Assembly: GCA_026988115.1 (NCBI GenBank)
Contig: JALSLV010000039.1
Coordinates: forward strand, 1-59,463
Source of the DNA: Lysobacterales bacterium
GTDB lineage: Bacteria; Pseudomonadota; Gammaproteobacteria; Xanthomonadales; Marinicellaceae
Reading direction: 5' to 3'
Length of the DNA: 59,463 bases
Position 1 is the stretch's first letter, and every line of letters starts with the position of its first letter. The translations under genes and the position numbers were made by a program. The notes beneath the pieces were generated by a model. It was given only the letters and a program-made list of their open reading frames with translations. It searched no databases and was not told where the DNA came from. This document shows positions 16,856 to 33,397 of this stretch, one piece after another.

Positions 16856-17389
16856 ATGCGTGAATTGTTATCAAATAAACAGATTGTTTTAAAGCGTTAT
16901 TCGTTACAAGATGCCTCTGATTTATTGTTAGCAATTAAACAATCCTACCGTGAGATATCGCCTTGGATGAGTTGGTTGACACCGAATTATGATTTAAAAG
17001 CGGCTAATGAATTTATCATAATCCAAACCAATAACTGGGATGATAACTTAGAATATACCTTTAGCATTAGAAACCACCAAGGCAACTTTTTAGGCACGAT
17101 TGGTATACATTTATACGATCAACTCAATGGTGTGGCAAATATCGGTTATTGGATGAATACGCCGCATTGCAATAACGGGTATTGCACTCAAGCCGTTAAA
17201 TTACTGGCGAAAAATGCTTTTAAAGAATTAAACTTAATCCGCATTGAAATTATTGTTGCCACTCAAAATGCAGCCAGCCAGAAAGTGGCAAACAAATCGG
17301 GTGCAAAATTTGAAGCAATTTTGAAAAACCGTATTAGACTCCGCGGTAAAGCCATAGAGGCTAATATGAATGCAATCTATTTCAAATGA
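16856..17389 (+). CDS. RimJ/RimL-type GNAT acetyltransferase
   Basis: 177 residues. Begins with IVLKRYSLQDASDLL and has IGYWMNTPHCNNGYCTQAV as the acetyl-CoA-binding strand-loop (with the less usual Cys in place of Gly-x-Gly) and NLIRIEIIVATQNAASQKVANKSG, typical of the ribosomal-protein acetyltransferase branch. It starts 2 nt after radA, and its TGA overlaps the ATG of the following kinase gene, so radA, this gene and the kinase may share a transcript. Substrate unknown. Confidence 0.85.
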   Translation: MRELLSNKQIVLKRYSLQDASDLLLAIKQSYREISPWMSWLTPNYDLKAANEFIIIQTNNWDDNLEYTFSIRNHQGNFLGTIGIHLYDQLNGVANIGYWMNTPHCNNGYCTQAVKLLAKNAFKELNLIRIEIIVATQNAASQKVANKSGAKFEAILKNRIRLRGKAIEANMNAIYFK

Positions 17390-20031: not shown

Positions 20032-20122
20032 ATATGACAGAGTTCTCAGTTTTAAATCTGCATAGTTCACTTATGGTTTTAAGTAGGGTAGTATAATAAA
20101 GTTTTTCTTTTGAGATATTATA

Positions 20123-20683
20123 TTGCAAGCAATACAATTAACAAAAATATTGAATAAATCAATGATGGATGGAAATACATGGGATGAAATATTGCCTATT
20201 GTATACAATCAATTGAAGATTCTTGCACGTGGGGTTAAACACCAACACAAAAAAAACCTCACGCTCAATACCACTTCTCTTGTGCATGAAGCTTACCTTA
20301 AGTTAGAGAAAGGCAGTAAATTTAATATTAATGGGACGCGTCATTTTTATCAATTAGCAGCCCAAGCTATGCGTCAAATACTGGTTGATAATGCTCGCGC
20401 TAAATTGGCAAAAAAACGTTCAAAAAATGACTCGGATCAAACCGAAGAAGAGTATTTTTTGGAAATAAATAATCAAGTTACTTCAGCTGAAGAAGTTGTG
20501 GAAATAGATAAAGCCCTGGAAGACTTAGAAAAACTTGACACTCAATTAGCACAAATCGTAACTTACCATTTTTACGGTGGATACACCTTTGTGCAAATTG
20601 CAGAAATGCTTGATATATCAGAGCGAACGACCCTGCGCTATTGGGAAAAAGCCAGAGCGTATATCTATTCACAGTTGCATTGA
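20123..20683 (+). CDS. ECF-type RNA polymerase sigma factor
   Basis: 186 residues. Region 2: WDEILPIVYNQLKILARG with LTLNTTSLVHEAYLKL and HFYQLAAQAMRQILVDNARAKLAKKR, characteristic of the ECF group often found with Ser/Thr kinases. Region 4: HFYGGYTFVQIAEMLDISERTTLRYWEKARAYI, the helix-turn-helix for -35 recognition. I use the TTG at 20123, because the first ATG (20162) would cut off the start of the first conserved helix. No anti-sigma gene follows, which fits regulation by the upstream kinase. Targets may be among the minus-strand secretome genes next door (inference). Confidence 0.88.
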   Translation: MQAIQLTKILNKSMMDGNTWDEILPIVYNQLKILARGVKHQHKKNLTLNTTSLVHEAYLKLEKGSKFNINGTRHFYQLAAQAMRQILVDNARAKLAKKRSKNDSDQTEEEYFLEINNQVTSAEEVVEIDKALEDLEKLDTQLAQIVTYHFYGGYTFVQIAEMLDISERTTLRYWEKARAYIYSQLH

Positions 20684-20688
20684 TTGTT

Positions 20689-23139
20689 TTACTCAAACCC
20701 GTCAGCGAAAACAAATTCAATATTAAAAGTATAAACAGAACCAGCATCAGTACCATTATCATTGTCTTGATAAGCACCAATTAAGGCATTGTCGCCCGAT
20801 AAACTCACCGAAAAGCCATAATAATCCGATTTAGCCCCATCATTGGCGAGGTGTTTTTTTGTTTCATCCCATGTGCTTCCATCGTAATCAAACTGGTAAG
20901 CGGCACCTGCATTTGTATCAGTATCATCATCCAAATGATTACCAATTAACATCCTATTGGCATCTAAACTCACAGAAACTCCAAAGTTGTCTTGGCTGCT
21001 GCCGTCACTGGCGAAAATTCTGGTGCTGTTCCATGTATTAGTGTTGACATCGTAGTCAAAAACATAGGCAGCTCCGGTTGATAAATTATTGAATCCTCGC
21101 TCACCACTGGCACCCACAACGGCTCGATTGTTCTTCAAATCAACCGCTGTACCGAAATGACCATTGGCTATTGGGTTGCTTATTTGCAGTTTTGTTTCCA
21201 GCCATAAATCATTTATGGCATCGTAGTCATAAATATAAGCCGCTCCAGCCGAACTTATGTTATTGATTCCATCGTCTTCATTGCGTGCACCGACTATGGC
21301 TCTACTGCCAAATAAGCTCACTGAATAACCAAAATCATCAAAAATTTCCCCATCACTTGGGATGAGTTTGCCGACAAATTGCCAAGAGCCAGTTGTTTTT
21401 TCATAAATATACGTTGTGCCTGATTTGATGCCATTTTCTGTATCAGAAGATGCGCCAACTAAAGCCCTGTCATCTGAAAGACTCACCGATGAGGCAAATT
21501 CGTCATTTACATTGATGACACTTTCAAACAAAGCGACTTCATTCCAGCTACTGCCATCGTAATTGAAGAAATACACCTTACCTGGACTCAGTGTATTTAA
21601 TTCATTGGCTGCAATAATAGCATTGTCACCCTCTAAATCCACACTGGAACCGAAGTTTGTACTTAAATCGGATGCCAATAATTTTATCGGAGCCAACCAT
21701 TGACCATTGACGTAATCAAAAATATAAGCCGCACCTGTATTCAATCCATTCTCTCCATCTAAAGGTGCGCCAATTAAGGCACGGTTGCCATCTAAACTGA
21801 AGGAATACCCAAAATTATCACCCACAGCCCCTTGTGTGACCACTTTTTGCGTTTGTTGCCATGTGCCGTTTAATTCAAAACTATAAACTGCTCCTGATTG
21901 GCTGCCATTATCACTATCATTGAAGTTTCCGACTATTAATTTATCGCCTGATAAAGCGATTGAGGATGCAAAAAAACTACTGCCAGTTATATCATCTGCC
22001 GCTATTTCTTGGGTAAACTCCCACATATTAATGCCTGTGTTGTAGTCAAAAATATAGACTGACCCAGTATCATTCCCACTGATTTCTCCGTTTAATGCAC
22101 CCACAAGCAAACGGTTGTTTTCAATGCTAACCGTACCACCAAACCGATTGCCATTTGCTGCATCTGGAGCTAATAATTTTGTTTCAATCCACAAAGTCCC
22201 ATTAAATTCATAAACATAAGCAGAACCTGCTGCATTAAACCCCTCATCGGTTTGATCTGCACCAATGAGAACATTGCCAGCAGAAATACTAACATCACTT
22301 CCAAAATCATCATTGTCAATGCCATCAGATGCAAGAAATTGATGAGTCTGTGACCAAGTAGAACCCGATAATTCAAACAAATAAGCAGCCCCTGTATTAA
22401 TGCCATTGTTGTTGTCATCAAAGTTTCTAGCAGCGACCAATGCCTGATTGCCATCCAGACTTACCGCATTGCCCAGAGCATCTCCAGATGAGCCAGCCGT
22501 TGCTGTGAGTATGGCGGACTCTTGCCAATTAGTGCCGTTAAAATCAAAAATATAGGCTGCGCCCGAGCCACTGCCATTGCTGATACTGTCGTAATCTGTG
22601 GTACCAATTAATACTCTATCACCTGATAAACTCACCGATGAGCCAAATTTATCACCACTTCCTGCATCACTGGCAATTAATTTTTGGGTTAAACTCCAAA
22701 CGCCATTGTTTAACTCATAAACATAAACAGCTCCGGCTTGAAACAAGCCATTCACCCGATTAAATTTGTCCGCTATTACCGCTCTATTGCCTTGCAAACT
22801 AACGGCACTTCCAAACCGATTATCTGCATTAATTCCATCAGGAAAAATAAGCTGAGTTTCAATCCAAGTGCTACCATCGTAATCAAAAATATAAGCCACG
22901 CCATGCTCTAATGCTCTGGGCGAACCAATCAATGCCCGATTGCCATCGATTGATACACTTTCCCCAAATCGAGCTCCATTACCACCCACACCAGTTGGTG
23001 TTGGCAATAGTTTTGATTGAATAATGACCTCTTGTAATTGTGCCAGTTTGCTGTCTTGTTCATTTTCTTGTACCTTGGCTTGAGCATTCACTAAAAATAT
23101 CAATGTCACAATAGTTAGTATTGTCTTATAAAATTTCAT
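20689..23139 (-). CDS. Secreted FG-GAP beta-propeller protein with DGFE tail
   Basis: 816 residues from the chosen ATG, preceded by GGAGAA at 23145-23150. An upstream in-frame start would add ten residues. Signal peptide MKFYKTILTIVTLIFLVNAQA. Fourteen repeats of about 55 residues follow, each with a core like SLDGNRALIGAP and a second strand AAYIFDYDGSTW, i.e. integrin-alpha-like FG-GAP blades, enough for two seven-blade propellers. The chain ends FVFADGFE, a tail shared with four other exported proteins here. No membrane anchor follows the tail. It is last in a tight five-gene minus operon and converges with the ECF sigma gene 5 nt away. Probably a surface or secreted protein. The ligand is unknown. 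Confidence 0.85.
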   Translation of the reverse strand: MKFYKTILTIVTLIFLVNAQAKVQENEQDSKLAQLQEVIIQSKLLPTPTGVGGNGARFGESVSIDGNRALIGSPRALEHGVAYIFDYDGSTWIETQLIFPDGINADNRFGSAVSLQGNRAVIADKFNRVNGLFQAGAVYVYELNNGVWSLTQKLIASDAGSGDKFGSSVSLSGDRVLIGTTDYDSISNGSGSGAAYIFDFNGTNWQESAILTATAGSSGDALGNAVSLDGNQALVAARNFDDNNNGINTGAAYLFELSGSTWSQTHQFLASDGIDNDDFGSDVSISAGNVLIGADQTDEGFNAAGSAYVYEFNGTLWIETKLLAPDAANGNRFGGTVSIENNRLLVGALNGEISGNDTGSVYIFDYNTGINMWEFTQEIAADDITGSSFFASSIALSGDKLIVGNFNDSDNGSQSGAVYSFELNGTWQQTQKVVTQGAVGDNFGYSFSLDGNRALIGAPLDGENGLNTGAAYIFDYVNGQWLAPIKLLASDLSTNFGSSVDLEGDNAIIAANELNTLSPGKVYFFNYDGSSWNEVALFESVINVNDEFASSVSLSDDRALVGASSDTENGIKSGTTYIYEKTTGSWQFVGKLIPSDGEIFDDFGYSVSLFGSRAIVGARNEDDGINNISSAGAAYIYDYDAINDLWLETKLQISNPIANGHFGTAVDLKNNRAVVGASGERGFNNLSTGAAYVFDYDVNTNTWNSTRIFASDGSSQDNFGVSVSLDANRMLIGNHLDDDTDTNAGAAYQFDYDGSTWDETKKHLANDGAKSDYYGFSVSLSGDNALIGAYQDNDNGTDAGSVYTFNIEFVFADGFE

Positions 23140-23140
23140 A

Positions 23141-23827
23141 TTAATTCTCCTGTAAAATAAGTTGTGCAATTTGTTTTAATGTTTCTTGTGTATTTATGAG
23201 AATATCTTTTGTTGAAGAGCTTATTTTTAGAATAAAATCTTCAGATTTTACAGACAGTATATAAGTAATGATAGTGCCTTGTTTCTTAATTAAATCTCCT
23301 GCCATACTTTGATCAAAATCATCGTTATTGGTCACAATCTTTGTTAAAGTGGCACTATCACCCAAATTATCAATTAGTTGATAATCATTTGAATTTCTTA
23401 TGGAGTCATTGTTATTTTTTTCCATCAGTTTTATCATGCTTTTGTCATAATGTGATGTATAAGATTGCATTGATTTATTGGCTTGGTTGATTTTTGACAC
23501 CAATTGTTTTTCAGATAATTTTATAGGAGGAAAAACATCCTGTGATTTTAGTTTAGTCAAGATAAATGTAATTGTATGAGTTTCGTCATTTTTATCATTC
23601 CACGACAATTCACACCAAGCGCCCATATAACCATTAAAAAATGAATCCGAAAATTGCGCTTCTTTAGTTATATCTTGCTCAATTGAAAGAACTGATTTAA
23701 CGGTATCAACATTAAGATAATCACATGCTTTTTCTTTGTTATAGAAGTCTGTAAACATACCTTGGGATGAAACCCCGCAAGAACTGAGTGTAAATAACCC
23801 TATTAGAGCCAATTTTGATTTAATCAT
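23141..23827 (-). CDS. Lipoprotein, paralogue of the upstream gene
   Basis: 228 residues with a lipobox (LFTLSSC, Cys at about 17). Shares with its upstream neighbour an early Cys in EKACDYL/EKVCQIV, a later Cys in a C-E-x-S-W strand, VFPPxKLSE, a Lys-rich central helix and a closing AQLIL. The two conserved Cys could form a disulfide. No named family is recognised. Overall pattern is loosely like DUF3558-type lipoproteins. It lies 1 nt before the FG-GAP gene and 1 nt after its paralogue. Confidence 0.7.
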   Translation of the reverse strand: MIKSKLALIGLFTLSSCGVSSQGMFTDFYNKEKACDYLNVDTVKSVLSIEQDITKEAQFSDSFFNGYMGAWCELSWNDKNDETHTITFILTKLKSQDVFPPIKLSEKQLVSKINQANKSMQSYTSHYDKSMIKLMEKNNNDSIRNSNDYQLIDNLGDSATLTKIVTNNDDFDQSMAGDLIKKQGTIITYILSVKSEDFILKISSSTKDILINTQETLKQIAQLILQEN

Positions 23828-23828
23828 T

Positions 23829-24509
23829 TTATTCTCCTTTTTTTCCTTTCAATATAAGTTGTGCTAATTGTTTTGCCGCTTCACTGTGTGGTGGATTTTT
23901 ACTTCTTAGGTTGAATGAATTTTGCATAGAAAGGGTGAGTTTTGTGTTCTCAACAACCGTAGTCAAGATAGATTCACTTTTACTTTTAATCAAAATCGCG
24001 GCATTACCCATGCCATTAAGCACTTCAAAATTATTGGCAGTTTTTTCTTCTGCGATAATGGTTTTTTTTGCGTAATCATAAGCCATCTTGTTTTTGCCAT
24101 TATTCCTTTTGTCCATATCCTTAACCATTTCTTCTATTTTATTATTGAGCTCAGCCTCAGAGAGTTTTTTTGGTGGGAACACTTCTCGATTTGAATCGTA
24201 AATGGATAAACTAACAGTAAATTCACCGTATTGCGTGCCTTCCCACGAATATTCGCAATTGTAAGAACCGCCATAATTTTCAACTCTCGTTTCCACTGCT
24301 TGTTTGATTTGCATAATTTTTTGAACAGCACTAATGCTCACAATCTGGCACACTTTTTCTCTGTCCATAAATGCCGTTAATGGCGAGCTAGGTGATGGAA
24401 TTTGCGATTGATTTTGCGATTTTTGATGCGCCTCACCCTTGTCATTGCATGCTAATAATGTAAATAATGCCAATAAAGAAATCAGTAATAATGGTGTTGT
24501 TTTTTTCAT
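23829..24509 (-). CDS. Lipoprotein, tandem paralogue
   Basis: 226 residues with a lipobox (LFTLLAC, Cys at about 21), then a Gln/Ser/Pro-rich linker. The conserved region repeats the plan of the following gene: EKVCQIV, CEYSWEG, VFPPKKLSEAELNNKI and KQLAQLILKG. The pair arose by tandem duplication. Its ATG overlaps the stop of the membrane-protein gene by 4 nt. Function unknown, though the operon suggests work in the same envelope process as the FG-GAP protein. Confidence 0.7.
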   Translation of the reverse strand: MKKTTPLLLISLLALFTLLACNDKGEAHQKSQNQSQIPSPSSPLTAFMDREKVCQIVSISAVQKIMQIKQAVETRVENYGGSYNCEYSWEGTQYGEFTVSLSIYDSNREVFPPKKLSEAELNNKIEEMVKDMDKRNNGKNKMAYDYAKKTIIAEEKTANNFEVLNGMGNAAILIKSKSESILTTVVENTKLTLSMQNSFNLRSKNPPHSEAAKQLAQLILKGKKGE

Positions 24510-25255
24510 TTTTTATAATCCTCTAAAGTTTTTTCAGTAGTCGTTTGATTATTTTCATCAGTAAAAATAGCACTGAAGACAAAATAGCTGGCACAAAATA
24601 TAACGGGCAGGGAGATAAACAACCCTAAGCCCACCGGAATGATGGAAATAAACAGGAGTATCATCACCATAATGTAATAAACAAGCAAAGCGGGTATGTT
24701 GTGCAAAACTGCCACAATGCTCAACTTTAAGGCGGGTAGGGTTTTGGCATGGCGCAAAACCACCAAAGGCACACAAAAAGACAGAGCAATGCCCCACATT
24801 GTATGGATTAACCAACTCAAAGCGCCACCCAATGAAAAGCTGCTATCAAGGCTTCTTTGGGTGCGGCTATCAATATGTTGCATTTGTTGAGTAAAAAAAG
24901 AGAAGTGATGAAAAGCATAATCTAATAGCACAACCACCGTACCCATTACACCCAATAGTAAAAGTTGTTTGTTGTAATCAGAGTTAAGGGCAGAAAACAA
25001 ACCCAAAAACGAAATATTATTGCCTTGATTGGACTGATGCAAGTTCAAATATACACCCCCTGCAAAATATGGTGCAACTATCATGGCAATAAATTTCCCA
25101 ATAAAAAAATTATTCAATAAACCCAAGCAAACAATAATCGTTAGCAACGTTGCTATCCATGTTAAAGGATTGTATTTAAAAACTACCCAGCCAGATTTAA
25201 GCCAGTTAATGCCAATTTTAAAATCGGTGATTATTTGGTAATTAATTGCCCTCAT
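24506..25255 (-). CDS. BPSS1780-type integral membrane protein
   Basis: 249 residues with about five transmembrane helices. The N-terminus IGINWLKSGWVVFKYNPLTW carries the GW-x-x-F-x-x-x-P signature of BPSS1780 family proteins, followed by GGVYLNLHQSNQG and FLGLFSALNSD. C-terminal cytosolic tail TTTEKTLEDYKK. A close paralogue, disrupted, lies at 26482-27113. It immediately follows the small GG-repeat gene (start and stop codons adjacent) and overlaps the lipoprotein gene. Function unknown. Confidence 0.75.
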   Translation of the reverse strand: MRAINYQIITDFKIGINWLKSGWVVFKYNPLTWIATLLTIIVCLGLLNNFFIGKFIAMIVAPYFAGGVYLNLHQSNQGNNISFLGLFSALNSDYNKQLLLLGVMGTVVVLLDYAFHHFSFFTQQMQHIDSRTQRSLDSSFSLGGALSWLIHTMWGIALSFCVPLVVLRHAKTLPALKLSIVAVLHNIPALLVYYIMVMILLFISIIPVGLGLFISLPVIFCASYFVFSAIFTDENNQTTTEKTLEDYKK

Positions 25256-25549
25256 TTAATTTTCAAAGCCATTTTTAAAAATAATATCAGTATTGATGCT
25301 ATTTTTACCAGCCCAAAACCCACCACTAAGGGTGAAATCACCGCCTGTTGAGGCTTGATTGGCATCGTGTTGCCCGATAGTGCCATTGAGGTTAAAATCA
25401 CCACCATTAGCAACACCGCCCCCAGCGGCAATGGCGGATTTTTCCACGGCAAAGTTGCCACCTGTTTGGGCAAATCCAATAAAGCTTATACTCATCGCTA
25501 TTGATATCACTATTTTTTTCATTTTTATTTTCATTTTCATTTTTTTCAC
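25256..25549 (-). CDS. Small secreted GG-repeat protein with NGFEN tail (copy 1)
   Basis: 97 residues. I start at GTG 25549 with GGGA upstream. Internal ATGs at codons 4, 6 and 10 are alternatives, and the signal peptide is KKIVISIAMSISFIGFAQ. The mature part is a short Gly-rich repeat: GGNFAVEKSAIAAGGG, NGGDFNLNGTIGQHDA, TGGDFTLSGGFW. It ends IIFKNGFEN. It resembles the paralogues at 27132-27413 and 33122-33397. Of these positions, 25338-25462 are identical to copy 2. It heads the five-gene operon ending with the FG-GAP gene. Role unknown. Confidence 0.75.
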   Translation of the reverse strand: MKKMKMKIKMKKIVISIAMSISFIGFAQTGGNFAVEKSAIAAGGGVANGGDFNLNGTIGQHDANQASTGGDFTLSGGFWAGKNSINTDIIFKNGFEN

Positions 25550-25559
25550 TATTCCCGTA

Positions 25560-25745
25560 AGGTGGGCTTGCCCACCACAATAAAGTCCACTGGCTATTAA
25601 AACCTTATTTTACACATACCCCATTGAAATAACTCAAACGGGTAGTTGGCTTTAGCCAACCATTAAAAGCCGCAGGTTTTAAAAAGTTTTAAATACCGTT
25701 GACTAAAGAATCATTAATTTCTCATTAAACTATTTAAAGGGTACT
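25560..25745. repeat. Intergenic repeats: GTGGGC palindrome, REP-like family A (copy 2) and a duplicated block
   Basis: GGTGGGCTTGCCCACC near 25561-25576 is a short palindrome. 25631-25691 is REP-like family A with core GTTGGCTTTAGCCAAC. The block from about 25683 to 25738 (CCGTTGACTAAAGAATC through AAAGGGTACT) recurs with few changes at about 27748-27803. Copy 2 of the small GG gene is flanked by the same repeats, so the repeats bracket the duplicated cassette. Confidence 0.75.
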
Positions 25746-25765
25746 GACCCCTTAAAGTTTTAGAT

Positions 25766-26416
25766 TCATTTGTTTAATGTAGCCAATACCTGTGCATCCG
25801 CTCTAGTGGTTAAATTTAGCATTAATTTACAGGCTTTATTTTGATGTGTTAGGTCGCTTTGCTGTAATACATCATTTTGGTGTAATGGATCATTTTTGTA
25901 AGCGGTAACAATTCCTTTGTATTCTTTCACAAGGAGATTATGATCATTCAAAGGCAATATCATTGCTGTTGATCGAATAATTTTGTCTGTTCTTTGGCTT
26001 AATTCCATGTACTGAGACCTTGTGTTACATTTGATTTTGGCTACATCAACAATTTTACTAACATCTACATTCTTTAATTTACTGTCTATTTCCTCGTAAA
26101 GTTTATCTAGCAGCTTGCACGTTTCAGCGGCATTTACTCGGTTACGGTTAAAGTCTCCGTTAATGCTTTGATATTTTTTTTTATAGCTGTTATATAGCTC
26201 ATTACCAAACACATTTTTTACGGTGCGTATTAAAGCTGGGCCATACATTGTTTTCACCATGTAATCTGTTGATGAGCTACATGTTTTTTCTTTTGCAATT
26301 GGCTTTTTAATCGCAGTTTTTGACCTATCGTTTTTATCATTGTATGCGTTGTCAGGTTCATTACATGCACTTAATATTGCAGTCAAACCTATTAATAACA
26401 GTATTTTATTAAACAT
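25766..26416 (-). CDS. Lipoprotein of unknown function
   Basis: 216 residues with a lipobox (LTAILSAC, Cys at about 18) followed by an Asn/Asp/Lys-rich linker. The mature region is mostly helical with paired Cys (CSSSTDYMVKTMYG, ETCKLLDKLYEE, IKCNTRSQYME, NKACKLML). Not recognisably related to the lipoproteins at 23141-24509. It occupies the equivalent cassette position after the second membrane-protein copy. GGAGAA lies just upstream of the ATG. Function unknown. Confidence 0.7.
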   Translation of the reverse strand: MFNKILLLIGLTAILSACNEPDNAYNDKNDRSKTAIKKPIAKEKTCSSSTDYMVKTMYGPALIRTVKNVFGNELYNSYKKKYQSINGDFNRNRVNAAETCKLLDKLYEEIDSKLKNVDVSKIVDVAKIKCNTRSQYMELSQRTDKIIRSTAMILPLNDHNLLVKEYKGIVTAYKNDPLHQNDVLQQSDLTHQNKACKLMLNLTTRADAQVLATLNK

Positions 26417-26481
26417 TATATTTCTCCTTTAAATATGTTCCACAATCCTCTGAAGGTATTGCGTATTCGATGAATTTATCT

Positions 26482-27113
26482 TCATGACTTTTTATAATCT
26501 TCTAAGGTCTTATCTAAAGAGGTTTTATCTAAAGAAGTTTCATCCTGCACTTTTGTGTTAAAAAGCGAATTATAGACCGCATAATTGGCGCAAAATATAA
26601 CAGGTATAGTTTTCGCAAACACACAAGTAGTACACTTAACGACAAAGCGATTGCCCAAATATAGCTTACCAAGGCACTTAAGATTGAGCCCAGTGAACCG
26701 CGTTCTCGATAGCTTATTGAGTGCTCTTTGCCTGAGAAGACCGTTAGATTGCTGCCTGGCATATTTTTAAAAACAAGGATAAGAACAATAATCGCAATAC
26801 CCATCAAACCAATGATAAATAACTGCTTTCTAGGATGGTCAGTATTTAAAGCAGAAAACAAACCCATAAAACCAATGTCTTGACCTTGATGAGATTTATG
26901 TAAAGTTAGGTAAATACCACCGAATAATAGTGGCGTAATCACAACACCGATAAAACCACCAATGGTAAAGCTATTAAGCAAGCCAACGATAACAACAGTG
27001 GCGATTATGATAAATAACCATGTAAAAGGGTTGTTTTTAAAAATAACCCATCCCTGTTTAAGCCAATGAATGCCTATGGTATTATTGTTTATATAGTTGT
27101 ATTGTATTTTCAT
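26482..27113 (-). pseudogene. BPSS1780-type membrane protein, second copy, with internal deletion and frameshift
   Basis: The N-terminal part reads IGIHWLKQGWVIFKNNPFTW and FMGLFSALNTDH like the copy at 24506-25255, through the helix IWAIALSLSVLLVCLRK. After that the open frame runs on as an unrelated 28-residue tail and stops at 26529. In another frame the sequence resumes as TIPVIFCANYAVYNSLF and ends KTLEDYKKS with a stop at 26482-26484, matching the paralogue's LPVIFCASYFVFSAIF and TLEDYKK. About 50 codons covering one to two helices are missing. A short duplication (SLDKTSLDKT) is present in the tail. A truncated protein may still be made. Confidence 0.75.
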
Positions 27114-27131
27114 TTATATTTTCTTATTAAC

Positions 27132-27413
27132 TCAATTTTCAAAGCCATTGGCAAAGATAGCTTCGGTTTGATTAATGGGTGGTTTTACCATCCAAAAGCC
27201 ACCACTTAACGCAAAGTCACCGCCTGTTGAGGCTTGATTGGCATCGTGTTGCCCGATAGTGCCATTGAGGTTAAAATCACCACCATTAGCAACACCGCCC
27301 CCAGCGGCAATGGCGGATTTTTCCACGGCAAAGTTGCCACCAGTTTGGGCAAATCCAATAAAACTTAACCCTATTAATACTGTGATAACTATTTTTTTCA
27401 TTTTTACCTTCAT
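27132..27413 (-). CDS. Small secreted GG-repeat protein with NGFEN tail (copy 2)
   Basis: 93 residues. Signal peptide KKIVITVLIGLSFIGFAQ. ATG at 27413 or the in-frame ATG four codons later. The mature part is nearly identical to copy 1 (125 bp identical at 27217-27341) and diverges only after SGGFW, where it reads MVKPPINQTEAIFANGFEN. Sequence identity in the body and divergence at both ends suggest recent duplication or gene conversion. It is followed by the broken membrane-protein gene. Role unknown. Confidence 0.75.
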   Translation of the reverse strand: MKVKMKKIVITVLIGLSFIGFAQTGGNFAVEKSAIAAGGGVANGGDFNLNGTIGQHDANQASTGGDFALSGGFWMVKPPINQTEAIFANGFEN

Positions 27414-27466
27414 ATTCTTCTCTATAAATTACAACTCATTGGCATTTATTAAAAAACCACCAAACA

Positions 27467-27526
27467 AACTCAAACGGGTAGTTGGCTTTAGCCAACCATT
27501 TAAACCGCAGGTTTTAAAAAGTTTTA
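27467..27526 (+). repeat. REP-like palindrome, family A (copy 3)
   Basis: ACTCAAACGGGTAGTTGGC, the palindromic core TTTAGCCAAC, then CCGCAGGTTTTAAAAAGTTTTA, closely matching 25631-25691 on the same strand and the minus-strand copy at 1621-1672. The 27414-27966 gap contains only repeats and no supported gene. Confidence 0.8.
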
Positions 27527-27592
27527 CATGGCTGTGCACGATTTTCCTGTTTCACACTTTCAATGTAACGAACAAATAATTTATACTCATTA

Positions 27593-27645
27593 GGGTTGTT
27601 GGCTTTAGCCAACCTTTTAAGAGCGTTGACTAAAGTCAACAACCC
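27593..27645. repeat. Composite REP pair (head-to-head)
   Basis: GGGTTGTTGGCTTTAGCCAAC (27593-27613) faces GTTGACTAAAGTCAACAACCC (27625-27645). Each half is itself palindromic (GTTGGC..GCCAAC and GTTGAC..GTCAAC), and the outer GGGTTGTTG pairs with CAACAACCC. This is the layout of a bacterial interspersed mosaic element. About 100 bp further, 27748-27803 repeats the block also found at 25683-25738. Confidence 0.7.
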
Positions 27646-27834
27646 AAAATAACAGTTATTTATTTAATATTTTATAACCTGTTGTATTATATATAGAAAA
27701 TAAACTTACAGTGTATGAAACAGGAGTTAAGCGCACAGCCATGAAGTTTTAAATACCGTTGACTAAAGAATCATTATTTTCTCATTAAACTATTTAAAGG
27801 GTACTAACACCATAAACTATGACCCCATAAACTC

Positions 27835-27936
27835 TGTAGGGTGCGACCCTTGTGGTCGCCCGAAAAATTGAACTATTACAACCAATGTTCATTGTTCAAT
27901 CAAAAAATGGGTACCCACAAGGGGCACACCCTACGG
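27835..27936. repeat. Imperfect inverted repeat with GTAGGGTG arms
   Basis: Arms 27835-27862 (TGTAGGGTGCGACCCTTGTGG onward) and 27909-27936 (ending CAAGGGGCACACCCTACGG) form a long imperfect hairpin around a 46-nt loop. GTAGGGTG-x-G-x-CC repeats of this kind are widespread in bacteria. It lies just downstream of the 678-residue protein gene. Confidence 0.65.
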
Positions 27937-27966
27937 AGTGATTGGTGAATTCACTACCCCTTAAAG

Positions 27967-30003
27967 TTAATTGCTGCAATTTGCATCACCACAACTGTAA
28001 ACTTTTAAATCACCATTGCTTAAATCCTGATAACTAATAATCGGATTGCCATCCGTGCCTATGGCGATACTGGTATAAGCACCCACAACACCTGCGGAGT
28101 CTAAGGCAATAGGTGTGTTAATAGTCGAACAACTTGGATTGCTACATTTCACCACTTTTAAATAGTCATTGTTGCTATCATAATAACTAATAATCGGATT
28201 GCCATCCGTGCCTATGGCGATACTGGTAAATCGACCCACAGTACCTGCGGAGTCTAAGGTAAGAGGCGAGTTAAAAGTCGAACAAATTGGATTGCTGCAT
28301 TTCACCACTTTTAAATTCCCATTGCCAAAAACAGTGTCATCAGAATAACTAATAATCGGATTGTCATCCGTGCCTATGGCGATACTGGTATATCGACCCA
28401 CATCACCTGCGGAGTCTATGGTTTGTGGAGAAGTAAACAAGGAGCAACTAGATGTGATGCATCTCACCACTTTTAAATCGCCATTGCTGCCATCATAATA
28501 ACTAATAATCGGATTGTCATCCGTGCCTATGGCGATACTGGTAAAGGTACCCACATCACCTGTGGAGTCTAAGGTAGTAGGTGTATTGGCTGTAGAGCAA
28601 CCTGGATTGCTACATTTCACCACTTTTAGGTTACCATTGTTGAATGGATTTTCAGAATAACTAATAATCGGATTGCCATCTGTGCCTATGGCGATACTGG
28701 TAAAAGAACCCACATCACCTGCGGAGTCTAAGGTAATAGGCGTATTGGCTGTAGAGCAACCTGGATTGCTGCATTTCACCACTTTTAAATCGCCATTGCT
28801 GTCATTATAATAACTAATAATCGGATTGCCATCCGTACCTATGGCGATACTGGTATAAAACCCCACACTACCTGCGGAGTCTAAGGCAATAGGTGTGTTA
28901 AAAGTTGAGCAACTTGGATTGCTACATTTCACTACTTTTAAAACAGCATTGCTAAAATCAGAATAACTAATAATCGGATTGCCATCAGCACCTATGGCGA
29001 TACTGGTATTAGCACCCACATTACCTGTGGAATCCAATATAATTCGTACCCCTATAGGCATCCGCGCACAAACCACATTGCCCGTTTGTGAAACGCTGGT
29101 GAGGTATTCAGGAAAAATACAACTGCCGTTGATGCGCTGTTGGATTTGGTTGGTATCCACATCAGCTGCCACAATCGATCCATCCAGCACTTTTGTTGAA
29201 TTAACTGAGTTATCACTGGGGGTAGGGAAAACACAAGTTGCGATACCGCTGGCATTGATACTCTTAACCACCCGACCGCCACTGCACACCGTGCTGACTC
29301 TTTGTTGGATTTGGGTGTTGTCAATATCCACCGCAGCAATGGTGCCATCAACAATCTCCGCACTGGTGACCGATGTTATCCCTGCGGTTTCTGCCACACA
29401 AACTGCCGTACCGTCTTGATTAACCGCTTGCATAAATTGTCCTGCTGGGCAAGTGGTTGTGACACGGCGTTGCACTTGTGCGGAGTTTACATCGGCAGCA
29501 ACAATGGTGCCATCAACAATTTTGGCAGAGCTTACGCTGCTATTGGCTAAATCGGCTGTGGCAATTGTGGCATTGATTATTTCGTTAGTGGATACGCTGT
29601 TTATCCCTATGTTTTGAGCAAAACTTGCGTGGCTTGCATAAGGCGTGGCAGTGACTTGTTGGCGTGGCAATAAGGTTTGATAACCACCAGTTGAATTGCC
29701 ATCTCTTACACTGATTTCTAGCCACACTTTGTCACCAAAAAATGCCCCACCATCAAAATCAATTTGGGTGGTAAAGATGCCATCTGTCACTTGCACATCA
29801 TCTGCAATAAAAAAACCAAAACTGAATCCAGTATTTTCTAACGATGCATCAAATGCCTCAAAGCGAAAGTCAAACAGACCGTTATAAGCAATGCCTGCAC
29901 TGTTTTTTAATTCGCCTTGGTAGGTGAATGATGTATCAAGGGGAATAGCATTGGCCATAAACCCATAAAGAATCAACAGTAAAATTATTTTATTTCTTTT
30001 CAT
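27967..30003 (-). CDS. Secreted protein: YQGEL domain, helical linker repeats and seven 51-residue repeats
   Basis: 678 residues with signal peptide NKIILLLILYGFMANA. Residues about 20-125 form the TFTYQGELKNSAG ... LPRQQVTATPYASHA domain also present in the protein at 32058-33107. Residues about 130-320 contain SAKIVDGTIVAADV-type repeats with C-x-G-Q/GR segments, as in intramolecular-chaperone or tail-fibre stems. The C-terminal part has seven tandem repeats (DSAGDVG-TSIAIGTDGNPIISYYD and GDLKVVKCSNPxCST), each with two Cys. No DGFE tail; it ends GDANCSN. Probably a cell-surface or secreted protein. Ligand unknown. Confidence 0.75.
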   Translation of the reverse strand: MKRNKIILLLILYGFMANAIPLDTSFTYQGELKNSAGIAYNGLFDFRFEAFDASLENTGFSFGFFIADDVQVTDGIFTTQIDFDGGAFFGDKVWLEISVRDGNSTGGYQTLLPRQQVTATPYASHASFAQNIGINSVSTNEIINATIATADLANSSVSSAKIVDGTIVAADVNSAQVQRRVTTTCPAGQFMQAVNQDGTAVCVAETAGITSVTSAEIVDGTIAAVDIDNTQIQQRVSTVCSGGRVVKSINASGIATCVFPTPSDNSVNSTKVLDGSIVAADVDTNQIQQRINGSCIFPEYLTSVSQTGNVVCARMPIGVRIILDSTGNVGANTSIAIGADGNPIISYSDFSNAVLKVVKCSNPSCSTFNTPIALDSAGSVGFYTSIAIGTDGNPIISYYNDSNGDLKVVKCSNPGCSTANTPITLDSAGDVGSFTSIAIGTDGNPIISYSENPFNNGNLKVVKCSNPGCSTANTPTTLDSTGDVGTFTSIAIGTDDNPIISYYDGSNGDLKVVRCITSSCSLFTSPQTIDSAGDVGRYTSIAIGTDDNPIISYSDDTVFGNGNLKVVKCSNPICSTFNSPLTLDSAGTVGRFTSIAIGTDGNPIISYYDSNNDYLKVVKCSNPSCSTINTPIALDSAGVVGAYTSIAIGTDGNPIISYQDLSNGDLKVYSCGDANCSN
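28033..29000 (-). repeat. Seven tandem 153-162 bp coding repeats
   Basis: The string ACTAATAATCGGATTG (plus strand) recurs at 28033, 28186, 28348, 28501, 28660, 28813 and 28966, i.e. every 153 bp with in-frame insertions of 6 or 9 bp in two intervals. The repeats encode the 51-residue units of the surrounding gene and remain very alike at DNA level, so copy number could vary by slippage or recombination. Confidence 0.85.
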
Positions 30004-30031
30004 TAAAAGTTACTCCATAAGTTTTGTTGCA

Positions 30032-31840
30032 TTAATTTTCAAACCCATCACTAAACATCGCATCAGGTCTTTGGGCTTCATCCGCACCAACGTCATAAGG
30101 GCCAAAGAAATCATTGATTTCAGGAAAATCTACGCCACGGTCTTCAAAATCCATGTCTTTGAAGAAACTATGGTCATTGGCTGCAAAATCTCTTGCTGGT
30201 GAGTTCAATGGATCAATGTGATAGTTGTTGGCTACGCGATTGACAAAAAGAGGATCATTTGTAGCTAAATCATTTCGATCTGGCACAGTTGGCAGTTCCA
30301 GACTGGCTTTTTCGTGAAGAAGACATTTTCGAAAATCCACCAAGGATTGTGAGCCAACAAAAGGCTCGATAAGTGTTCCTGTTGATGCATCACTGACAAT
30401 TGAATTATGTATTTCAGAAACAGCACCTGCAGTATCGACAATACCGAAAACAGCAACATCGGCTAAATTATCGGCAATGGTTGAATGGTAAACATCAACT
30501 TGGGCATTTCCTGCAACTCTAAAGACATTTCTGTCATCGTGTGGGAAAGTGCCAACGCGAATTCCTCCATTATCGCGAATAACACAACCAATAAAGGTGG
30601 TTAAGCTGTTACTGCCAACCGTATATAAGACCGTACCAAAATCAGCTCGATTTAATGCAATTTCTGATTGGTTGATATTGGCGATTGCACCTGTATTGTA
30701 GAGAAGTCCACCTAAACCAGAATTCTCCCCTGATTTGTTACCAATAAAAAAATTACAATGGTCCTCATTCCAACAAGATTTCTGTGAACGAGTCACATTT
30801 AGTTCTGCATTGTTTGCAATAGCCATTCCACCCCCATTGGAAGCAGAAGTATTTTGCGCTAATAGCACCATATTCATATTTATTTGAGTGTTAAATCCCG
30901 TTAAAAATATTCCACCACCATTGCCTTGTGCTGTATTGCCAGCAATTGTTACAGGTTTGGTGTTATCTCCTGTACAAATTAATCCACAACCACTTTCATT
31001 ACCGATTAAGTCAATTGTCGCTTCATCTTCTGCATAGATTCCACCGCCTTGCATGGTAGCTAAATTTCTATTTATTCCAAAATCTAAGCTTATGTCATTA
31101 TCACCACTGGCGAAGTGGAAATCACAAGTATTGAGAAAAACACCACCACCAGAACCATTGGTGGCACCATTTCCACTAATTCCAGTGTTTGTACTAAATA
31201 CAAGCTGGGGAGCAATTCCTGTTCCTGTATAATTACAATATAGACCACCACCACTTTCAGTGGCTTGATTGAGTTTAATTACTGTATCGGTGACAAAAAG
31301 ATTCATTCTATCTGCTCCAATCATCGCAATGCCTCCTCCAAATCGACCAACGTTATTGTGTATTAAATTATCATTTAGGATGATTTCAACATCAGCACCA
31401 AAAGCTAATATGCCACCACCTCCGAGTCCATTTGAGGTGCCTCCAGTTATTTCAAGACTATCGAGTTCTACACTATTAATAAAGGTGTTTCCAAATATTC
31501 TAATGGTTGATAGCGTATTAGCAGAACCATCGATAATAGACTTTTCATTTGGGGTTTGAATACCAGCTGCAGCATTTGCACAGCTTGTAAAACCTCCAAT
31601 AATGGTTATACTTTTGTCATTGATAATAATGTTTTCATTGTAGGTTTCAGTATTAACAACATGAATATCTGAAAAATTAGAGTCTATTGCATCCTGAATT
31701 TTTGTTGTACCAGTTGTAATGTCACAGCTACTGCCTGCTGAACCAACTGTTATCACCGTTGCTCCTTTACTCTCTTCAATGCTCGCTTGGGAGTTTATTG
31801 ACATCACTAGAATTATTGCGCTTAAGAATTGTACTCTCAT
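30032..31840 (-). CDS. Secreted right-handed beta-helix protein with DGFEN tail
   Basis: 602 residues. Signal peptide to about residue 19 (QFLSAIILVMSINSQA). CDITTGTTKIQDAIDS begins a polymorphic-outer-membrane/pectate-lyase-like beta-helix: NIIINDKSITIIGGF, then rungs rich in GGGI, GNGGGIFL, NGGGMAIAN and SGGGLYCN. The C-terminal part is the usual closing segment NYHIDPLNSPARDF and VGADE, then AMFSDGFEN. The closing pattern is known from choice-of-anchor beta-helix proteins of marine Gammaproteobacteria and Bacteroidetes. A 49-bp element upstream (31871-31919) is shared with the gene at 33122-33397. Ligand or enzymatic activity unknown. Confidence 0.8.
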   Translation of the reverse strand: MRVQFLSAIILVMSINSQASIEESKGATVITVGSAGSSCDITTGTTKIQDAIDSNFSDIHVVNTETYNENIIINDKSITIIGGFTSCANAAAGIQTPNEKSIIDGSANTLSTIRIFGNTFINSVELDSLEITGGTSNGLGGGGILAFGADVEIILNDNLIHNNVGRFGGGIAMIGADRMNLFVTDTVIKLNQATESGGGLYCNYTGTGIAPQLVFSTNTGISGNGATNGSGGGVFLNTCDFHFASGDNDISLDFGINRNLATMQGGGIYAEDEATIDLIGNESGCGLICTGDNTKPVTIAGNTAQGNGGGIFLTGFNTQINMNMVLLAQNTSASNGGGMAIANNAELNVTRSQKSCWNEDHCNFFIGNKSGENSGLGGLLYNTGAIANINQSEIALNRADFGTVLYTVGSNSLTTFIGCVIRDNGGIRVGTFPHDDRNVFRVAGNAQVDVYHSTIADNLADVAVFGIVDTAGAVSEIHNSIVSDASTGTLIEPFVGSQSLVDFRKCLLHEKASLELPTVPDRNDLATNDPLFVNRVANNYHIDPLNSPARDFAANDHSFFKDMDFEDRGVDFPEINDFFGPYDVGADEAQRPDAMFSDGFEN

Positions 31841-31870
31841 AAAATGTTCCTATTTTCATTGATTAACTCT

Positions 31871-31919
31871 AAGTACGTAAACCAACTCGATTCACTGCCA
31901 ATTATTTAAAATTAATTTT
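31871..31919 (-). promoter_or_regulatory. 49-bp upstream element, copy A
   Basis: Lies 31 bp before the ATG of the beta-helix gene and matches 33433-33481 at 45 of 49 positions. On the minus strand it contains AATTGGCAGTGAATCGAGTTG, then CGTACTT. TTGGCA could serve as a -35, but no good -10 lies 17 nt downstream. It may be a promoter for an alternative (ECF) sigma factor or an operator. Function inferred from placement only. Confidence 0.5.
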
Positions 31920-31953
31920 CAAAAATATTAAGTCATGCATTTACTCTTAAACT

Positions 31954-31995
31954 AAATAGTTGTTGGGCTACGCAAGCTTAGCCCAACAACTATTT
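31954..31995. terminator. Strong hairpin between the YQGEL gene and the beta-helix gene
   Basis: Perfect 17-bp arms: AAATAGTTGTTGGGCTA (31954-31970) and its complement (31979-31995), 8-nt loop. It sits downstream of the minus-strand gene ending at 32058. T-tracts are short, so it may be a REP-like element acting as terminator rather than a classical terminator. Confidence 0.6.
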
Positions 31996-32057
31996 TTGAT
32001 AGCAAGACTATGTTAAAGCCTCGCTTCCTTTTTCTATTCCACAAAAGCAGATTTAAA

Positions 32058-33107
32058 CTAATAGATCAAAACCATAAAAGAGCCTAATACTCTATCCCCG
32101 CTATTAGGTCTAAAATAGTTACATAAAAGTTGATTGTTAGCATCACCAATCCTGCATTGTACCGCTCTTGCATTAGTTGAATTACCAGAGGTGGCAAACC
32201 TAGGAGAGGCTTGGAAAAATCTGTCGTTAATATCTGTTGGAAAATTTATAATACAGCCACCTGGTGAGTTTGACACAGTAATATTTCCAGTATTAACGCC
32301 GTTAAATGATTTAGTTATTACTGCAGTTGGAGAGTTGCAAAATACATCAACCATATATTTCATCACTCCACTTTGGTCGATAGATTGTTTTAAACCGCCA
32401 TTTACCACTGTATTGTTTCCTGCCTTAGAAAGCCTCACATCACCTCCGTAGAAGTTAAGGAACATGGTTCCAGGGTCATTACTCCCATTGATGCGTCTTT
32501 GAATGTCATCGCCATCAATAGTCATATGTGAGCCTGCTGTATTGCCAACGCTCAGCCCGCCATTGCTACTGGTGCTTACCTGTGCTGTTCCTGTTAGTTC
32601 AGCTGATCCGTTGTAAGAAACAGTTGAACCATTTTCTGTCCAAGGAGTTGCTCCAAATTCCGCTTGCACGGCATAGGGAACGGCATGAATTTTTTGCCTA
32701 GGACTCAAAGTGGTTTCACTGCCAGGGTTTCCTGTTTCTCTAACAGTTACCGATAACCATAAAGCATCACCTGTATAAGCGGCATTTCCAAAATCAATGT
32801 CTTCTATTGAAAAAATTCCATTAGCAACGGGTCTGTTGCCTTTTATGACATTGCTGCCTATTTGAGTGCCTCCAATCAGGGCATCGTATAGTCCAAACGC
32901 AAAGTCAAAATTGCCACTAACAGCAGTTCCAGCATCCAGCAGTTCGCCTTGGTAATTAAAACCACTGCCAATTGCTGCAAATTGTATGGGTTCATTAGAT
33001 AAGTTTTGAGCTTCTGTATAACCTTCGAATTGACTCGTTACTGTATCGTCCGATGCAGCACAGGAAAGTGATGCCAGTAATAATATGGATAAGTAATTGT
33101 TTTTCAT
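32058..33107 (-). CDS. Exported protein with YQGEL N-terminal domain
   Basis: 349 residues. Signal peptide with possible lipobox (LLLASLSCAAS, Cys at about 16). Residues about 48-150 match the N-terminal domain of the 678-residue protein: FNYQGELLDAG, FDFAFGLYDA, ALWLSVTVRE, LSPRQKIHAVPYAVQA. The rest is beta-rich with SNGGLSVGN and DDIQRRINGS, like the stem of tail-fibre/adhesin proteins, and ends without a DGFE tail. It lies 14 nt after the third small GG-repeat gene and has GGAG upstream of its ATG. Function unknown. Confidence 0.7.
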   Translation of the reverse strand: MKNNYLSILLLASLSCAASDDTVTSQFEGYTEAQNLSNEPIQFAAIGSGFNYQGELLDAGTAVSGNFDFAFGLYDALIGGTQIGSNVIKGNRPVANGIFSIEDIDFGNAAYTGDALWLSVTVRETGNPGSETTLSPRQKIHAVPYAVQAEFGATPWTENGSTVSYNGSAELTGTAQVSTSSNGGLSVGNTAGSHMTIDGDDIQRRINGSNDPGTMFLNFYGGDVRLSKAGNNTVVNGGLKQSIDQSGVMKYMVDVFCNSPTAVITKSFNGVNTGNITVSNSPGGCIINFPTDINDRFFQASPRFATSGNSTNARAVQCRIGDANNQLLCNYFRPNSGDRVLGSFMVLIY

Positions 33108-33121
33108 GATATTCTCCTGGA

Positions 33122-33397
33122 TTATTCAAATCCGTTTGTAAAAATTATTTCAGTTAATGGTGCATTATTTGTTTTATGCCAAAAACCTCCGTTGAGGCTG
33201 TAGTTTCCGCCTGTTTGTGAACTACTTGCATCGACTTGTCCAATACTGGAGTTCATTTCATAATTTCCGCCAGTCATTTTTCCACCACCGCTGTTGATTG
33301 TGTATTTCTTTATTTCGTATTGCGCAAAAGATTGGCTTGCTATCAAAGCAAGAATTGTTGCGATTATCTTTTTCTTTTTTCTCAGTGCATTAAACAT
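33122..33397 (-). CDS. Small secreted GG-repeat protein with NGFE tail (copy 3)
   Basis: 91 residues, basic start (NALRKKKK) and signal peptide ending SQSFAQ. The mature part follows the same plan as the copies at 25256 and 27132 but is divergent: NSGGGKMTGGNYEMNSSIGQVDA, TGGNYSLNGGFWHK, then TEIIFTNGFE. AGGAGG is just upstream of the ATG. It heads the run of minus genes toward 27967. Role unknown. Confidence 0.72.
   Translation of the reverse strand: MFNALRKKKKIIATILALIASQSFAQYEIKKYTINSGGGKMTGGNYEMNSSIGQVDASSSQTGGNYSLNGGFWHKTNNAPLTEIIFTNGFE

Follow-up and report, generated by a model that had tools for sequence, protein, structure and literature searches.

The contig JALSLV010000039.1 of a Lysobacterales bacterium (assembly GCA_026988115.1; positions 1 to 59,463 of the forward strand, 59,463 nucleotides) is referred to here as the window; it is contig C39 of a 3.51-Mb genome, G000 (G, C, L and f mark our handles for genomes, contigs, loci and families). 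The window encodes five exported proteins that end in the motif F-x-[DN]-G-F-E. We conclude that this motif is an address tag, an interpretation that is well supported, and that its reader is probably a second type II secretion system (T2SS), here called S-type, an assignment drawn from co-occurrence of the two in genome sequences. All five genes are on the minus strand. An FG-GAP_2 protein of 816 residues (20689..23139, from the ATG at 23139; Pfam PF14312, E=6e-158) has the tail EFVFADGFE, read from the sequence, with tag codons at 20692-20709. A beta-helix-like protein of 602 residues (30032..31840) ends in DAMFSDGFEN (tag codons 30038-30055); its matches to Chlam_PMP, para_beta_helix and POMP repeats are all weak and below cut-off. 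The other three are small proteins of a GG..GGFW family: one of 88 residues (25256..25522) with the tail TDIIFKNGFEN (tag codons 25262-25279), its paralog of 89 residues (27132..27401) with TEAIFANGFEN (27138-27155), and one of 91 residues (33122..33397) with TEIIFTNGFE (33125-33142). Each tail is followed by a stop codon, either directly or after a single N. The window holds no other terminal F..GFE, and the sole other match in six frames lies in a frame of 16 residues. An earlier note on this DNA had placed the five tails correctly but had described the proteins as unrelated. The products of 25256 and 27132 are homologous to that of 33122 (38-46 % identity), so the five proteins represent three passenger types: FG-GAP_2, beta-helix-like and GGFW. 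AlphaFold2 models of the 33122 protein (pLDDT 59, 27 sequences) and the beta-helix protein (pLDDT 38, single sequence) were too poor for use.

The motif recurs throughout G000. The coding pattern for F-x-[DN]-G-F-E, TTYNNNRAYGGNTTYGAR, matches the genome 60 times, compared with 9 matches for the reversed pattern that served as the control; when a stop codon is required, the counts are 34 and 0. We inspected the surroundings of all 60 matches and read the frame of each. Five are in short spurious frames (31, 67, 23, 19 and 22 residues) and 55 are in plausible open reading frames (ORFs). The motif lies no more than 6 residues from the C-terminus in 50 of these 55 and elsewhere in the other five. 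The 50 terminal cases end in E in 34 proteins, and the next residue is N in 12, D in 3 and L in 1; only two extend further. Position -1 is occupied by I, L, V, M or F in all 50. At position -3, 40 of them have D or E (15 of 36 in tagged proteins of sparsely tagged relatives). The tag reads roughly [D/E]-x-[I/L/V/M]-F-x-[N/D]-G-F-E-(N). A looser form of the pattern, which admits Y at the first F, S at G and every residue at D/N and still requires a stop, yields 61 matches compared with 2 in the control, only part of which were read individually. The 50 terminally tagged proteins fall into 27 BLAST clusters. Synonymous codons are used at the first F, D/N, G and E of the tag (the second F is TTT in all 50), and comparison of the DNA after the stop codon among tagged genes revealed nothing shared. 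These two observations indicate selection on the peptide, and a DNA-level element at gene ends was rejected on their account.

The tagged proteins appear to be exported. A signal-peptide rule, which is crude and lenient and not a dedicated predictor, was passed by 49 of the 55 tagged ORFs and by 132 of 230 untagged neighbour ORFs. Five of the six tagged ORFs that failed begin with a signal peptide by eye, and the sixth, C14:22336, has no clear start. By this rule and by eye, none of the 55 encodes an evidently cytosolic protein. The motif thus occurs on non-homologous, exported-looking proteins, as is generally expected of a short address tag. Two tagged proteins at locus L333 (contig C30 of G000), found by eye among the cases matching the looser pattern, have twin-arginine-like starts, which suggests that the tag acts on proteins already folded when they enter the periplasm. 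None of the five window proteins matched an NCBIfam C-terminal sorting model (E up to 10, within HMMER's filters), and there was no such model among the 25 of 29 matched families listed for the 50 tagged proteins (E<=1e-4). The matches at that threshold do include rhombosortase-, myxosortase- and LPXTG-dependent, ExeM, PelZ and 'choice-of-anchor' models. However, these matches may be partial and show domain sharing only; for example, a related M14 protein matches a rhombosortase-type model through a common domain with 31 bits, compared with a cut-off of 1700.

A free C-terminus is not needed by the tag. Among the five non-terminal cases in G000, the motif lies directly after the signal peptide in three, inside a protein longer than 2,400 residues in one, and ahead of 86 further residues in one. 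Homologs of a protein on contig C42 were matched in 14 of 20 genomes searched. We fetched 30 loci of this family; 5 were duplicates and 5 were without the landmark used, leaving 20 that were readable (the C42 protein itself included). A motif of the form (F/Y)-x-x-(G/S)-(F/M/L)-E precedes the common domain in all 20. It has the strict form in 7 and directly follows a visible signal peptide in 18; one member, L263, has no clear in-frame signal peptide. In L242, from G529 of the same genus as G000, the variant DDIFKNSFE separates an upstream domain from the one shared with the C42 protein, an arrangement that resembles a fusion of two genes through the tag. In L248 (G480), a locus with no landmark and a weak match of 66 residues, EIFINGFE lies right after the signal peptide of what is apparently a different exported protein. 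The earlier note's claim that the tail is always at the very end is therefore true of the window but not of the genome, where 5 of 55 cases are not terminal and one family carries the tag N-terminally. Neither of the outcomes that the note named as refuting its reading was observed: with 27 clusters among 50 proteins the tail is not confined to homologous genes, and with 50 of 55 cases terminal and none evidently cytosolic it is not equally frequent at internal positions or in cytosolic proteins.

In the genomes sampled, the tag is confined to one order and is patchy inside it. This order is presumably Xanthomonadales/Lysobacterales of GTDB, and the family of G000 presumably Marinicellaceae (PMC7691419). 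With a stop codon required, a sample of the class (369 genomes) gave 34 matches in G000, 4 in another member of the order and 0-2 elsewhere; outside the order, 364 genomes gave 32 matches compared with 31 for the control. In a sample of the phylum (299 genomes), the 291 genomes outside the order gave 18 matches compared with 31. Within the order (397 genomes, stop required), at least one match was found in 112 genomes and two or more in 90, with up to 56 per genome and 0-1 for the control. All 10 genomes of the same genus as G000 carry the tag (11-50 matches), but only 3 of 33 genera of family f2 and 4 of 24 genera of f3 do so, and it is absent from G384, a member of G000's own family assembled in 2 contigs and 100 % complete. 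Ten relatives in which the tag is sparse yielded, by pattern, 36 tagged proteins with varied passengers.

The GGFW family illustrates how the tag can be exchanged for other C-terminal modules. A scan of genome contigs returned 80 loci; the region after GGFW was readable in 64, and the 16 unread loci include some from Lysobacterales. Modules were labelled by eye. Six of the 64 end in the tag, all from Lysobacterales or unnamed (Gamma)proteobacterial metagenome-assembled genomes (MAGs). Homologs from Phycisphaerae and Planctomycetota mostly end in EF-hand-like, dockerin-type repeats, and those from Verrucomicrobia mostly have an FN3-like region with an NLFFRL-like end. In many of these homologs the dockerin-like or FN3-like module is placed, like the tag, right after GGFW, but it comprises about 55-80 residues, unlike the eight-residue tag. 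Homologs in Anaerolineae (L175) and Methylococcaceae (L194), both MAGs, have a short LPLV.K-like tail that is possibly a second short tag system.

We chose the T2SS as the first candidate reader because it carries folded proteins exported by Sec or Tat. A search for GspD (TIGR02517) in a panel of 68 genomes (36 with and 32 without the tag) suggested two types. In G000, the canonical locus (L266) has the order E-F-G-H-I-J-K-L-M-N-D, in which the gene called N has no Pfam domain at E<=0.01. The S-type locus (L265) has the order C-(hydrolase)-D-E-F and is accompanied by a separate gspG-H-I-J-K locus (L321). Twelve related S-type GspD proteins are 40-47 % identical to the G000 copy, compared with about 25-31 % between S-type and canonical proteins. 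The S-type C, D, E and F of G000 were assigned by Pfam and NCBIfam (GspC is below the NCBIfam cut-off and above that of Pfam), G was assigned by TIGR01710, and H-K were assigned by position, pseudopilin-like N-termini and similarity to the loci of relatives. GspL and GspM were not recognized in the two S-type loci of G000. Judged from these assignments, the S-type system appears to contain the components expected of a T2SS, C, D, E, F and the pseudopilins G-K. A second, strong GspG (170-190 bits) lies away from the canonical locus in all 10 S-type genomes searched, whereas four S-type-negative genomes with a T2SS have a single GspG above the cut-off (93-127 bits), of canonical type. By tblastn, gspG-H-I-J-K are all present in six of nine other S-type loci, and one or two are missing in three; a second G408 locus (L331) gave a GspG match only. 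The names of H, I, J and K in relatives rest on similarity to the G000 genes, and operon layouts in G+C-rich relatives rest on tblastn, since longest-ORF gene calling is poor there. All nine S-type GspC proteins scanned have PDZ matches, three of them above the Pfam cut-off. A CRISPR array (L321:2245-4750, contig C103; 28-bp repeats with a 60-bp period, about 40 copies) lies upstream of the S-type gspG-K genes in G000.

The S-type T2SS and the tag tend to occur in the same genomes. A profile of 13 S-type GspD proteins matched 157 of the 397 genomes of the order at E<=1e-100. We counted 126 as S-type, either for a high score or as fragments at S-type density (including the partial G624, G665 and G752); the other 31 are full-length matches, mostly of about 440-500 bits, or weaker. 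By genome, S-type GspD is found in 82 of the 90 with at least two tags and in 44 of the 307 others. S-type GspE adds G475, G510 and G524, bringing the first figure to 85 of 90, with a few controls re-examined among the 307. The earlier note proposed profiling for a co-occurring transporter or transpeptidase. Counted by genus, the S-type system co-occurs with the tag: it is present in 30 of 31 tagged genera compared with 12 of 67 untagged ones (Fisher 2e-14; family-stratified CMH chi-square 24). The signal within families comes from f2 (3/3 tagged and 2/30 untagged genera) and f3 (4/4 and 2/20); f183 (1/2 and 3/11) and f184 (all S-type) add none. In the 68-genome panel, S-type is found in 34 of 36 tagged and 6 of 32 untagged genomes. 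The corresponding numbers for exosortase (PF09721) are 20 of 36 and 8 of 32 (p about 0.01), and S-type is thus a far better correlate of the tag. No exosortase match was found in G000, G375 or G465, despite 34-50 strict tags in each, or in 16 of the 36 tagged genomes overall; exosortase is therefore disfavoured as a partner and remains a weak correlate. The canonical T2SS was rejected as a discriminating partner: it was verified in the untagged G159, and GspD exceeds the cut-off in 30 of the 32 untagged panel genomes (all but G384 and G010). G384 was counted for the S-type link, as it lacks both the tag and any match to GspD, GspE or GspG at the cut-offs used. This 4.7-Mb genome has no GspD or GspG match at E<=1e-3 and no match to the S-type GspE profile at E<=1e-20 (a profile that elsewhere also catches PilB-like ATPases), and it seems to have lost its type IV-filament machinery and the tag along with it.

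The likeliest single reading, which we hold tentatively, is that the motif is a short linear address tag on exported proteins, read by the S-type T2SS. The earlier note had taken the tail for a recognition tag of an outer-membrane machine; a recognition-type tag on exported proteins is what we find, and an outer-membrane machine is plausible, with the co-occurring second T2SS as the candidate. We postulate that Sec (for two proteins, apparently Tat) would put the tagged proteins into the periplasm, with the tag, interchangeable between folds, placed C-terminally or close to the start of the mature protein. The S-type T2SS (gspC-D-E-F with the separate gspG-H-I-J-K) would recognize the tag there, perhaps through binding by the PDZ-like domain of its GspC, and would carry the folded proteins to the cell surface or the medium. 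In its full form, which we regard as possible but somewhat doubtful, this proposal would make F-x-[ND]-G-F-E a transplantable linear secretion address, which a dedicated second T2SS recognizes at either end of folded proteins in the periplasm, and the first T2SS signal visible in sequence.

Several observations weigh against a T2SS as reader. The link is a correlation among related genomes, in which genera cannot be treated as independent. The division into two types was first suggested by 68 genomes that are included in the 397, so the larger set is no independent test. Only two machines, T2SS and exosortase, were profiled, and the second is weakly enriched in tagged genomes too. G459, assembled in 80 contigs and 98 % complete, has 4 strict tags, and 8 matches to the looser pattern compared with 1 in the control (some perhaps due to chance); it has canonical GspD and K-N genes but no match to S-type GspD or GspE. 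G480, G534, G412 and G540 are also tagged and have no S-type match, although these genomes are fragmented (180-530 contigs). Conversely, 12 genera have S-type but no tag, which indicates that the machine runs without the tag somewhere. We considered a variant tag in such genomes, but a loosened pattern gave 3 matches compared with 9 for the control in 18 of them, none beyond control. A scan of 20 loci revealed no tagged gene near an S-type T2SS; outside G000, 12 S-type gspCDE loci, 9 belonging to tagged genomes, were covered and had none. In G000, an M14 peptidase with the tag variant VLFKNSFE starts 3.8 kb beyond gspF, a proximity that tag density alone could explain. As for the PDZ domain, one of the nine PDZ-matching GspC proteins (L280) comes from an untagged genome, and PDZ binding normally calls for a free C-terminus, yet the tag works without one. 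Shared ancestry and joint loss could also account for the link between the tag and S-type.

A close rival is surface retention: an outer-membrane receptor or enzyme might hold the proteins by the tag, whatever their export route, and the S-type T2SS might co-occur as their exporter or through joint loss of ancestral traits. We consider this possible, though doubtful. It would account for the many S-type genomes that lack the tag, which show that the tag is not needed to run the S-type machine, and for G459, which is tagged without S-type. Some passengers share domains, by partial matches, with families that are surface-anchored elsewhere, and the GGFW family bears other C-terminal modules in other phyla. 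However, no receptor family was found; exosortase fits weakly, with the panel counts given above and none in G000, G375 or G465; and the association with S-type persists within families f2 and f3.

We think it improbable that the tag is instead a processing or quality-control signal, by which a periplasmic protease or modifying enzyme would trim, modify or spare the tagged protein. Such a signal could well be short, mostly terminal and near-invariant at G-F-E, and a patchy distribution is seen for enzyme-substrate pairs as well. But the tag is also found near the mature N-terminus and between domains, and its independence of a free C-terminus speaks against any processing that depends on the C-terminal end; moreover, no partner enzyme was seen among the few families searched. 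Very improbable is the absence of any machine, with the tails either a remnant of shared ancestry or of shuffling of gene 3' ends, or else a DNA element there. The three small window proteins are indeed homologous and two are near-identical duplicates, but such an origin is hard to reconcile with 27 clusters among 50 passengers, with synonymous variation and no common downstream DNA, with N-terminal copies kept in homologs from G000's own family of genomes and beyond, or with the 36 tagged proteins on varied passengers in ten sparse relatives.

The surroundings of the tagged genes include untagged partners and possible regulators. In the window, the 25256 gene is near-identical to that at 27132, and the genes beside them (24506 and 26529) resemble, by eye, paralogous membrane proteins; positions 24506-27401 look like a tandem segmental duplication. 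An untagged, exported-looking protein of 349 residues (32058..33107, minus strand) is encoded directly downstream of the tagged 33122 gene, and another of 678 residues (27967..30003, minus strand) is encoded downstream of the beta-helix gene, which is tagged. Four G000 loci (window 32058-33397, L011, L046 and L050) share an arrangement in which a small GGFW gene with the tag immediately precedes a gene for an exported-looking protein of about 340-410 residues that lacks it. The untagged partner has a YQGEL-type N-terminal region, and the pair is a possible operon in which one partner only is tagged. A Ser/Thr kinase with TPR repeats (17386..20031, plus strand) lies two genes from the tagged FG-GAP gene, with an ECF sigma factor (20123..20683, plus strand; PF07638, E=3.6e-32) between them, so that 17386-20683 holds two regulators near a tagged gene. 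In the ten sparse relatives, a Ser/Thr kinase is the commonest recurrent untagged neighbour (8 of 40 loci, 5 of 10 genomes), which we read as regulation; four more neighbour groups reach 3 genomes and are housekeeping-like by eye. Seven related winged-helix regulators, CadC-like by eye, are found in five G000 loci with tags (L049, L102, L110, L111 and L112).

Known sorting systems offer several points of comparison. In the tripartite signals (PEP-CTERM, GlyGly-CTERM, LPXTG and MYXO-CTERM), a transmembrane helix and a basic cluster follow the motif. The tag is followed by 0-6 residues in 50 of 50 terminal cases, with nothing hydrophobic or basic among them, so the tripartite architecture is lacking, as the earlier note had recognized in setting the tail apart from PEP-CTERM, GlyGly-CTERM and LPXTG. 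The PEP-CTERM/exosortase system places a sorting tag on many unrelated exported proteins and is patchily distributed, as is the tag here; the tag differs in being without a transmembrane helix and in occurring in genomes that do not consistently have an exosortase. GlyGly-CTERM (rhombosortase) and MYXO-CTERM (myxosortase), like the tag, are short end regions on unrelated exported hydrolases, many substrates to one enzyme, and 3 of the 50 tagged proteins match, in part, NCBIfam models of rhombosortase- or myxosortase-dependent M36 proteases. Unlike these signals, the tag is also found N-terminally. The C-terminal domains of the type IX secretion system (T9SS) of Bacteroidota are Ig-like and serve as a C-terminal address of exported proteins for an outer-membrane translocon; the tag, in contrast, is about eight residues long rather than an Ig-like domain and belongs to Lysobacterales.

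Haft and Varghese (PMC3237569) state that species with GlyGly-CTERM generally also have a T2SS, but saw no sign of rhombosortase being a marker of one T2SS subclass; compared with that account, the tag differs in correlating with one T2SS subclass. The tagged proteins resemble T2SS substrates in being exported by Sec or Tat and folded, and single ones match models of the ExeM/NucH nuclease and the PelZ pectate lyase (irrespective of cut-off). PMC11981180 describes substrate recognition by the T2SS as an open question and says of the substrates that 'a conserved signal ... has not yet been identified'. Unlike the known substrates covered there, the tagged proteins show a candidate signal. In Vibrio cholerae, according to PMC12369372, the PDZ domain of EpsC is fully needed for just one known substrate, VesB, for which an Ig fold carries PDZ-dependent secretion information; this is a precedent for a PDZ domain choosing a subset of substrates. 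We found no description of the tag in the literature searched, although subscription journals were mostly outside its coverage and absence from print does not follow. If a T2SS reads the tag, the question of T2SS recognition would become open to direct experiment, since tagged proteins can be identified from sequence. The tag would predict much of the surface proteome in many members of the order and could be put to use as a small secretion handle. Should the reader be something other than a T2SS, a sorting tag that has no membrane anchor and functions at both ends of proteins is still unlike the tripartite C-terminal signals.

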